From Thiotrichaceae bacterium (GTDB lineage Bacteria; Pseudomonadota; Gammaproteobacteria; Thiotrichales; Thiotrichaceae), in assembly GCA_026988095.1 (NCBI GenBank), contig JALSLX010000076.1, positions 1-56,197 on the forward strand: 56,197 nt of DNA, given 5' to 3'. Both the position numbers and the translations under genes were made by a program. This document shows positions 40,746-43,618 of this stretch, piece after piece; position 1 is the first letter of the stretch; every line of letters starts with the position of its first letter. The notes beneath the pieces are model-generated. The model searched no databases. It was not told the DNA's origin and saw only the letters and a program-made list of their open reading frames with translations.

Positions 40746-40751
40746 TATAAT
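40746..40751 (+). promoter_or_regulatory. -10-like TATAAT before rpoZ
   Basis: A perfect TATAAT 39 bases ahead of the rpoZ start. The matching -35 is poor (CTATCT with a 17-base spacer), so the call is tentative. Confidence 0.4.
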
Positions 40752-40789
40752 TGATCTATAGCTCCCTAAAAAATTACAGGTATAGAAAC

Positions 40790-41053
40790 ATGGCACGAGT
40801 AACCGTAGAAGACTGTCTAAAACACGTTGATACAAATTATGATTTAGTTTTACAAACTGCAAAACGCGCACGCGCAATTGCTGAAGGTGCTCCAGCACTA
40901 GTTGAAGAAAACGGCGACAAACCCGTTGTTATTGCTTTACGCGAAATTGCCGAAAATGTTAAACCAGAAGATGTACTTACTGTTGATGCCCCTGAAGAAA
41001 TGACAATGGATCAAGACCAGTCTTTAGAGCCTGTTGAAATTTCTGTAAACTAA
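40790..41053 (+). CDS. rpoZ: RpoZ, RNA polymerase omega subunit
   Basis: 87 residues, starting [20 protein letters not shown], with the conserved [29 protein letters not shown] block. Omega aids RNA polymerase assembly and forms part of a ppGpp site. I start at the ATG at 40790 since it matches the family; upstream in-frame codons are not conserved. It is followed after 14 bases by spoT, the usual gammaproteobacterial order. Confidence 0.95.
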
Positions 41054-41067
41054 TTTAGGGCAAGATT

Positions 41068-43218
41068 ATGCCCAAGACCGCATCCCACCTTATCAATGCG
41101 ACTGATTTAAGTGAATTAGTCAGTCGCTACATGAATGAAGAGGATGCGAGTCGAGTTTACGATGCTTTTTTACTTGCCGCTGATGCACATGATGGCGTAG
41201 TACGAAAATCAGGCGAACACTATATCTTCCACCCTCTGGAAGTCGCCTACACCCTTGCTGATTTACATATGGATGCCGACACTATCTGTGCCGCACTACT
41301 CCATGATGTCATTGAAGATACCCAATACACCAAAGCTGACATCACCGAAAAATTTGGGGATATTGTTGCTGACTTAGTTGATGGCGTCACAAAATTAGCA
41401 GGTGGCGAATTTACCTCACGAGATGAAGCGAACGCGGCTAGTTTTCAAAAAATGATGGCGGCGATGACACAAGATTTTAGAGTCGTTTTAATAAAACTTG
41501 CAGACCGCTTACACAATGTTAAAACCTTAGGTGTTCGTAAGCCTGCTTCAAAAAGGCGCATTGCCCAAGAAACTTTAGATATTCATGTGCCACTGGCAAG
41601 ACGCATGGGCATGAATGCCATGCGCAAAGATTTACAGGTGAATGCTTTTAAACATTTATTTCCTTGGCGAGCAAAGGTACTGCAAGAAGCGATGGATAAC
41701 TTCATCAGTGAAAATACTGACACCCATCAAGAAATAATTAAAACTATTACCGAAGCCCTTTATAAAAATAACGTAAAAGGACGAGTTTTTCGTTGGCATA
41801 AAAATATATACCGTCTATATCAACGTATAAAAAACAACAAAAATAAAAACCAGCTTGATAGCCAGACAGAAGCATTAGAGCTACGCGTTTTAGTTAACAC
41901 CAGCGCTGATTGTTATGCCGCACTTGGTGTAATTCACCAGCTTTATCAGCCTAAAATCGGCAAGTTTAAAGATTTTATAGCCACTCCAAAAGGTTATGGT
42001 TTCCAAGCACTGCAAACGGCTTTATTAACTCCTCAACGCCAATTAATTCTTGTGCAAATTCAAAGTCACGAAATGTACCAGATTGCGCAATATGGTATTA
42101 CAGCCCATCGTCGTAATCCTGATTTACTCAATTCATCAGATAAATCTCAAATCTACTTAAACCGTTGGTTACGACAAGTTGAAGAAATTCAGCAAGTGAC
42201 GGGAAACGCCGCAGAATTTATGCAAGATATGAAAGCAGACCTGTTTCTTTCAGAAATTTATGTATCAACACCCAAAGGGGAAACTAAAGTCTTACCCAAG
42301 GGAGCAACTCCTATTGATTTTGCGTATTCAATTCATACCGAAATTGGAGACAAATGCGTGAGCGCTTTTATTGATGGCGAATTAAGTCGTCTAAATGCAC
42401 AAATACCCAATGGTGCGACCGTAAAAATCATCACAAAGGATGATGCAACACCGCATTCGATCTGGTTGAATTATGTCATTACAGGTAAAGCACGCTCATC
42501 AATACGCAACTGGATAAATAAACGTAAATCACATGAGTTTGTTGCTTTAGGCAGAAAAATTCTTGAAAAAAGCTTGAAAAAATTTGGACTTAATCTTGAT
42601 CAGATAGACCCAATAAATATGCTGAAAACACTAGAAGCACTCAGCTTAGATACAGAAGATATTTTATTTAGTAATATTGCAAAAGGTAATCAATCTTCCA
42701 TGTTGGTGGCAAAACGTTTGCTTGATGACGAGCTACTAATGCCCATTGAAGATGAAGATCAAATGCTGTTAATTAAAGGCACTGAAGGCCTAGCTGTTCA
42801 CTTACAGGAATGCTGTCACCCAATACCTAACGATGCAATTGTTGCCCAGCTTGATGAAATTAGAGGGCTTGAGGTGCACCGAACAAACTGTCCTGCACTT
42901 TCGCACAGCAAAGCATTACAGAAAAAAGAAACCATGAGTATCGCGTGGGTTGATGACACAAGTAATGAATCTCATTTTTTGGCTCCGCTTAATGTGCAAG
43001 TTCAAAATCGTGTTGGTGTATTGTCACACATCACAGATTTTTTAGAAAAAATGCGTGTTAACATCGAAGATATCAATATCGCAGGTGATAGCAATATCAA
43101 AGATATGTATTTTTTGCTCCAAGTAAAAGATGCAAACCATTTAAGACAAATCGCAGAATCACTCAATAATCAGTCACACGTCATTGATGTAGCACGACTA
43201 TTTGACAAAGCAAAATAA
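41068..43218 (+). CDS. spoT: SpoT-like (p)ppGpp hydrolase with a degenerate synthetase domain
   Basis: 716 residues with all RSH domains: HD hydrolase (about 25-180), synthetase (about 230-345), TGS (about 370-435) and ACT (about 645-716). The hydrolase site is intact: R46, H55 in FHPLEVA, HD 79-80 in LLHDVIEDT, and LADRLHN. The synthetase site is not: catalytic D becomes E268, catalytic Glu of EVQIRT becomes L328 (LVQIQS), Arg becomes Q332, and GYQSLHT is FQALQT. It probably degrades (p)ppGpp without making it; a separate RelA would then be needed. Operon rpoZ-spoT-ridA. Confidence 0.95.
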
Positions 43219-43228
43219 GGACTCACAG

Positions 43229-43618
43229 ATGACAAGAGAAGTAATCTCAACCGATAAAGCGCCACAGGCCATCGGCACCTACTCACAAGCAGTAAAAATT
43301 GATAACACCGTTTATATTTCGGGTCAAATTCCATTAATAGCAGAAACTATGGAGCTAGTTGAAGGTGATTTTGCAGACCATGCTCGGCAAGTGTTTAAAA
43401 ACTTATCCGCTATTACAGAAGCTGCAGGCGGTAATATTAACGATTGTGCTAAGGTGAACATATTTTTAACAGACTTAAGCAATTTTGCGACAGTCAACGA
43501 AGTTATGGCTGAGTTTTTCACACAGCCTTATCCAGCACGTGCGGCTATCGAGGTATCGGCATTACCTAAAGGCGCTGTAGTTGAAGCAGACGCAGTGATG
43601 TCACTACAAGAGCATTAA
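43229..43618 (+). CDS. ridA: RidA, enamine/imine deaminase
   Basis: 129 residues. YjgF/YER057c family with the substrate-binding Arg in [16 protein letters not shown], the [16 protein letters not shown] start and a C-terminal VEADAVM. RidA removes reactive 2-aminoacrylate made by PLP enzymes. The start at 43229 is supported by AAGGA and the conserved N-terminus [12 protein letters not shown]; a start further upstream would overlap spoT. This is the normal spoT-ridA neighbourhood of gammaproteobacteria. Confidence 0.95.

Follow-up and report, generated by a model that had tools for sequence, protein, structure and literature searches.

The bifunctional SpoT, designated SpoT[HS], is the form found in E. 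coli and most Beta- and Gammaproteobacteria, and in E. coli the replacement E319Q alone is reported to abolish its synthetase while the hydrolase stays normal (PMC6085430). A hydrolase-only counterpart, SpoT[Hs], is attributed to Moraxellaceae only, as far as the main text of the two relevant accounts goes (Atkinson 2011, PMC3153485; PMC9974481), and neither main text mentions Thiotrichaceae, Thiotrichales or Beggiatoa. SpoT of Acinetobacter baumannii, having lost residues of the synthetase domain (SYNTH), is described as a hydrolase-only protein (PDB 7qpr) which binds no GDP, does not allow (p)ppGpp0 E. coli to grow on minimal medium and whose pseudo-SYNTH tunes the hydrolase domain (HD) (PMC9974481). 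RelA is reported to be the sole synthetase of this species, relA mutants behaving as (p)ppGpp0 (PMC12742793). A search by title and start of abstract, outside subscription journals, returned no paper on SpoT of the family considered here, nor one on SpoT or RelA of Thiothrix, Thiotrichales or Beggiatoa. Here, we describe a SpoT from Thiotrichaceae which, in our judgement, is very probably a hydrolase with a regulatory pseudo-synthetase, in a cell where RelA would make the alarmone, the loss dating back to the family ancestor and being probably separate from that in Moraxellaceae. Hydrolase-only SpoT is thereby proposed as new for Thiotrichaceae, SpoT[Hs] of Moraxellaceae being already known; the latter had been mentioned in the initial annotation for "Moraxellaceae-like lineages", and the two accounts cited indeed name that family.

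The window, i.e., the whole stretch of DNA analysed, comprises 56,197 nucleotides, and its positions 41068-43218 on the plus strand form a single open frame translated into a SpoT of 716 aa. The gene names rpoZ, ridA and coaD are putative, ridA being named by resemblance, and so is the function assigned to single SYNTH residues other than those treated in the cited papers. The features of the locus are as follows (residue counts refer to SpoTs of the family).

40790..41053, plus strand: rpoZ (RNA polymerase omega), upstream neighbour of spoT (ORF 40751-41053, internal ATG)
41068..43218, plus strand: spoT, HD - pseudo-SYNTH - TGS - helical - ACT, 716 aa (ORF, Pfam, NCBIfam)
41164..41613, plus strand: (p)ppGpp hydrolase domain (HD) with an intact motif (Pfam and alignment)
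41302..41319, plus strand: HDVIED motif (H79, D80, E83, D84), intact (alignment)
41437-41439, plus strand: A124 (E. coli E117) in the HD domain (alignment)
41794..41796, plus strand: W243, replacing the Arg of the ATP site (E. coli R236; alignment; R in 1/56)
41797..42111, plus strand: pseudo-synthetase domain (RelA_SpoT, PF04607; Pfam, weak score of 72 bits)
41869..41871, plus strand: E268 in place of the catalytic Asp (E. coli D259; alignment; D in 17/56)
41878..41880, plus strand: E271, new acidic residue (E. coli A262; alignment column counts)
41995..42018, plus strand: YGFQALQT (310-317), altered G-loop (E. coli NGYQSLHT, 301-308; alignment)
42049..42051, plus strand: L328 in place of the catalytic Glu (E. 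coli E319; alignment; E in 0/56)
42061..42063, plus strand: Q332 in place of the QIRT Arg (E. coli R323; alignment; Q in 56/56)
42256..42435, plus strand: TGS domain (Pfam)
42970..43197, plus strand: ACT domain (Pfam)
43229..43618, plus strand: ridA (YjgF family), downstream neighbour of spoT (ORF 43202-43618)

The gene order rpoZ-spoT-ridA recurs in a relative (L005) and in an Acinetobacter-like locus (L185). Pfam recognises HD_4 at residues 33-182, RelA_SpoT at 244-348, TGS at 397-456 and ACT_4 at 635-710, the PF04607 score being 72 bits, against 150 for the RelA encoded elsewhere in this genome. The general NCBIfam model TIGR00691 (spoT_relA) is matched above its cut-off with 592 bits, and the bifunctional SpoT equivalog PRK11092 gives 598 bits, under the cut-off of 947.

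Sites named by the residue of E. coli K-12 SpoT (L073), with which SpoT of the window was aligned, follow the E. coli numbering. Its hydrolase motifs had been described as intact, and all ten residues concerned (R46, H55, H79, D80, E83, D84, K143, D146, R147, and N150) are present in columns that are invariant over an alignment of 68 sequences. SYNTH carries the changes R236W, D259E, N301Y, Y303F, H307Q, E319L, and R323Q. The initial annotation had listed the conversion of the catalytic Asp to E268, the catalytic Glu to L328, the QIRT Arg to Q332 and GYQSLHT to GFQALQT; the alignment places E268, L328 and Q332 opposite D259, E319 and R323, agrees with each of these readings and supplies four further changes absent from that list, namely R236 to W243, S242 to R249, K246 to R253, and N301 to Y310. 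The SYNTH catalytic residues D259 and E319, characteristic of bifunctional SpoT[HS], are absent. Of the features of SpoT[Hs], the protein shows an intact HD and the loss of both catalytic and substrate residues of SYNTH, and its genome also encodes a RelA whose SYNTH is intact. Because E319Q alone abolishes synthesis in E. coli and Acinetobacter SpoT with comparable losses is hydrolase-only, we infer that SpoT of the window would lack synthetase activity.

The genome to which the window belongs (2.26 Mb in 167 contigs, 92.5% complete) contains exactly two RSH genes as judged by both PF04607 and PF13328, the spoT under study and a relA on another contig (C49). At every tabulated SYNTH site this RelA is identical to E. 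coli RelA, and its HD motif is destroyed. Neither a small synthetase nor an extra hydrolase was found with the same two models, a missing gene being possible at 92.5% completeness. Thus the proposal that the cell would depend on RelA or a small synthetase is narrowed to the former: the search for relA recovered an intact synthetase domain combined with a dead hydrolase motif, with no third RSH, and since the only other RSH is this RelA, the cell would rely on it. Judged from sequence, synthesis and hydrolysis are split cleanly between the relA and spoT genes, and by analogy with A. baumannii RelA is predicted to be the only alarmone source here.

For the distribution of these changes, 95 relatives were searched and 63 genomes of the family were scored with the SYNTH model; SpoT could be read in 56 of them, representing 8 genera, while in the other 7 it was unmatched, fragmentary or divided between contigs, and residue tables were compiled for these 56 together with about 200 other RSHs. 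The link of the family (f1) to Thiotrichaceae/Cocleimonas comes from the named records L075 and L076; these two resemble genomes G001 and G011, have the same motif strings as their SpoTs (L008 and L011) and are counted outside the 56 and inside the 58-row columns. E319 and H307 are kept in none of the 56 family SpoTs and R323 is Gln in all of them; N301 and R236 survive in one each, Y303 in 8, whereas K238, R264 and K299 are largely kept. D259 is retained in 17/56, comprising all five SpoTs of genus g7 and 12 of the 16 of genus g2 (presumably Leucothrix and Thiothrix, respectively). Chance, sequencing error or a lone aberrant metagenome-assembled genome is ruled out, since none of the 56 SpoTs preserves the catalytic Glu, the His of the G-loop or the Arg of QIRT. 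The change is therefore family-wide, unlike the single-genome view of the initial annotation. Over the family SYNTH scores are bimodal, 56.6-85.2 bits corresponding to SpoT (58/63 genomes) and 124-155 bits to RelA or a RelA-like paralogue (58/63 genomes), while one match of 68 bits is a contig-edge fragment of the paralogue. When the substitutions were mapped on the RSH tree, as the annotation had proposed, E319, H307, R323, N301, and R236 turned out to be lost in all 26 family rows used, and D259 required three changes inside the family. The first five residues were thus lost in the family ancestor, and D259 was eroded later and not in all genera, its survival in 17/56 pointing to stepwise erosion.

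Several peculiarities of RSH content were observed in passing. The RelA-like paralogue (L205-L209 and L211-L213, in genomes G003, G008, G017, G022, G028, G006, G053, and G020) is about 650 aa long, has an intact SYNTH and a dead HD, and spans less sequence than RelA from TGS to the CC/H/C part; identity to family RelAs is about 36-52% for the four paralogues compared, and the genome of the window has none. Most SpoTs of g2 (L045-L055, L217) measure about 580-650 aa owing to an in-frame deletion between TGS and ACT, both domains being still detected by Pfam in L048 and L053; their HD motif often reads HDVPED, and the g2 genomes G040, G049, G095, and G097 have a full-length SpoT.

Outside the family, D259, E319, H307, and R323 are kept in 85/85 SpoTs of the class sample and in 16/16 of Pseudomonadales, one of the latter (L215) belonging to family f8; among 17 relatives from other families E319 is found in 17 and D259 in 16. 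Of 78 named loci from outside the family, including 13 of other phyla, 77 have D259 and 76 have E319 (the exceptions being one Asp and one Lys), all comparison loci being best matches to a query rather than a random draw, so that rare losses elsewhere may have been missed. SpoT of Gammaproteobacteria bacterium COS2_bin_1 (L132), with E319 changed to Lys, R236 to Val and K238 to Thr and with D259 and R323 kept, is a further candidate loss.

The relation to Moraxellaceae deserves separate consideration. A search for Moraxellaceae in the class sample gave none above 39% identity, and the Moraxellaceae rows were obtained from an order search centred on G066. It yielded ten dead SpoTs in family f8, one of them 86% identical to A. 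baumannii SpoT, and two f8 genera with an intact SpoT of bifunctional type (L068 in G066 and L215 in G498); the published "Moraxellaceae" trait therefore covers only part of f8. An alternative, unlikely in our estimate, derives the SpoTs of both Moraxellaceae and Thiotrichaceae from one dead SpoT spread by horizontal transfer. It draws on free quick trees built without SYNTH columns, which join Thiotrichaceae with the dead Moraxellaceae SpoTs at SH-aLRT 96-98, and on two derived HD residues, E117A and L173M, shared by both groups. However, both groups sit on long branches near the SpoT root, and when either is dropped the other stays near the base of the tree; in the AU test on 45 rows, trees with the dead group held together with intact f8 or Pseudomonadales SpoTs beat the free tree by 3.07 and 3.70 log units, respectively (p-AU 0.566 and 0.587). 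Moreover, at 13 conserved columns, in SYNTH and elsewhere, both groups are altered but carry different residues, the two HD residues being the sole identical changes; of these, E117A, present in 57/58 family rows, 10/10 dead Moraxellaceae SpoTs and 28/36 SpoTs of the family f33 described below, occurs also in 15/181 synthetase-intact SpoTs. The location of spoT behind rpoZ, common to Thiotrichaceae and the Acinetobacter-like locus, fits vertical descent as well. We interpret the joining in terms of long-branch attraction between groups that lost the synthetase separately, which the tree by itself does not prove, and the Thiotrichaceae loss is probably independent of that in Moraxellaceae. The independent event suggested in the annotation is accordingly favoured by residue pattern, by AU tests that do not reject it and by the intact SpoTs of further Moraxellaceae genera, though the free trees, joining both long branches, speak against it. 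As to E117A, it had been considered as a signature of hydrolase-only SpoT and was dropped in view of the 15 intact SpoTs having it; it is perhaps a permissive change.

That the altered domain is retained is indicated by its evolutionary rate. Median pairwise SYNTH/HD divergence, based on 1228 pairs from Thiotrichaceae, 14429 pairs of intact SpoTs and 30 pairs of dead Moraxellaceae SpoTs, amounts to 1.39, 1.00 and 1.73, respectively. For the 14 closest of 49 family pairs, the ratio of SYNTH dN to gene dS lies in the range 0-0.104 (dN/dS of the intact set was left unused because of dS saturation). Pseudo-SYNTH is relaxed yet under purifying selection. Simple decay, by which the domain would be functionless and heading for loss, accommodates the raised divergence ratio as well as the disappearance of an internal stretch between TGS and ACT from most of g2; it is disfavoured by the constraint just given, by the presence of the domain in every family SpoT read and by the invariance of Y310, G311, Q313, T317, and Q332 over 20 aligned family members, and appears quite improbable. 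A pseudogene is ruled out by the full-length frame together with strong constraint. The AlphaFold2 model of SpoT of the window (mean pLDDT 86) has a normal HD-SYNTH fold, superimposing on S. aureus Rel NTD (7oiw) with Z 38.1 and rmsd 1.8, and two helices, 358-377 and 381-392, at the place expected for the Core. Against Acinetobacter SpoT (7qpr) the full-length model gives an rmsd of 18 over 510 residues, the compact tau-state arrangement not being reproduced and the placement of the C-terminal half being unsettled in the model.

Some residual or altered synthetase activity is conceivable from the sequence, considering D259 in 17/56, the largely kept K238, R264, and K299, and the new E271; a rebuilt synthetase, in which E271 as a migrated acid together with E268 replaces the catalytic Glu and (p)ppGpp or a related nucleotide is still made, would agree with D/E at this column in 52/58 family rows (90%) vs 0% of comparison SpoTs (mainly A/G), with its distance of three residues from the D259 position, itself acidic (D or E) in 88% of aligned family rows, and with purifying selection on SYNTH, but the simultaneous loss of R236, N301, H307, and R323, the faster evolution of SYNTH than of HD, and the other strong synthetase domain in 58/63 family genomes make it very improbable.

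According to the preferred reading, that of a hydrolase with a regulatory pseudo-synthetase, HD of SpoT would hydrolyse the alarmone made in this cell by RelA, and SYNTH would be a retained folded pseudo-enzyme most likely giving structural or allosteric support to HD, as pseudo-SYNTH does in Acinetobacter SpoT. Starvation signals, which switch SpoT to synthesis in E. coli, would act here by slowing hydrolysis against RelA output. In terms of evolution, E319, H307, R323, N301, and R236 would have gone first, in the family ancestor, followed by D259 in some genera only. All alarmone in these bacteria is predicted to come from RelA (plus the paralogue where present), and a relA deletion should be (p)ppGpp-free.

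A further case was encountered in family f33 (42 genomes, 25 genera), which entered the analysis via the exceptions L064 and L078. It is probably Beggiatoaceae, 25 genera being the number given for that group in an abstract; NCBI labels of its relatives are Thiotrichaceae for L078 and Thiotrichales for L091. Among the 36 SpoTs read (L285-L314 and L329-L334), all have an intact HD and H307, 32 have lost D259 (Asn in 20), 35 keep N301, 32 keep R323, and 28 have E or D at the E319 position. The full SYNTH set is present in each of the 14 second RSH genes read from f33. Since a basal row (L307) keeps Asp at D259, the loss of this residue arose within f33. An AU test on whether Thiotrichaceae and f33 SpoTs form one clade gave p-AU 0.436 and does not separate the two clades; nevertheless f33 keeps what Thiotrichaceae lost, and the two losses are therefore independent by site pattern. 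SpoTs of f33 are possibly nucleotide-binding pseudo-synthetases, to judge from the residues retained. Tentatively, and at rather less than even chances, SpoT synthetase loss would be recurrent, Gammaproteobacteria having undergone it on at least three occasions and along three routes (all sites in Moraxellaceae; the catalytic Glu, phosphate side and G-loop in Thiotrichaceae; chiefly the catalytic Asp in f33, where the substrate loop remains). Each time the domain would have been retained to sense for the hydrolase or to brace it, and that of f33 may still bind nucleotides and report to the hydrolase without product. In one f33 genome (G736) the RelA-type second RSH (L320) aligns H-D-E-D at the HD motif, unlike other f33 RelAs read, and might retain hydrolase residues.

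With a second, and probably a third, family-wide case, differing in stage and in the residues substituted, the isolated Moraxellaceae example can be treated comparatively, allowing one to ask which SYNTH residues outlast catalysis and so how the pseudo-domain serves the hydrolase. With bifunctional SpoT[HS] the protein of the window shares the gene, domain order, place behind rpoZ and HD motif, and differs from it in the replaced catalytic and substrate residues of SYNTH and in the equivalog score (598 of 947 bits). SpoT of f33 is alike in having lost a catalytic SYNTH residue in most of the family beside an intact RelA-type synthetase, but there D259 is gone while H307, N301, R323, and mostly E319 are kept, the reverse of Thiotrichaceae. 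The closest resemblance is to SpoT[Hs] of Moraxellaceae: both are long RSHs with HD intact, a void SYNTH kept and evolving faster, and a RelA with intact SYNTH. They belong to different lineages and have other replacements at SYNTH sites; K238, R264, K299, and partly D259 are kept in Thiotrichaceae and lost in Moraxellaceae, and the new acidic residue at the A262 position distinguishes Thiotrichaceae. The alpha6-alpha7 loop consists of 23 residues in SpoT of the window as in E. coli SpoT, compared with 21 in the shortened loop of Acinetobacter-like L185, and this, together with the modelled domain arrangement, suggests that the regulatory mechanism may differ from that of Acinetobacter SpoT.
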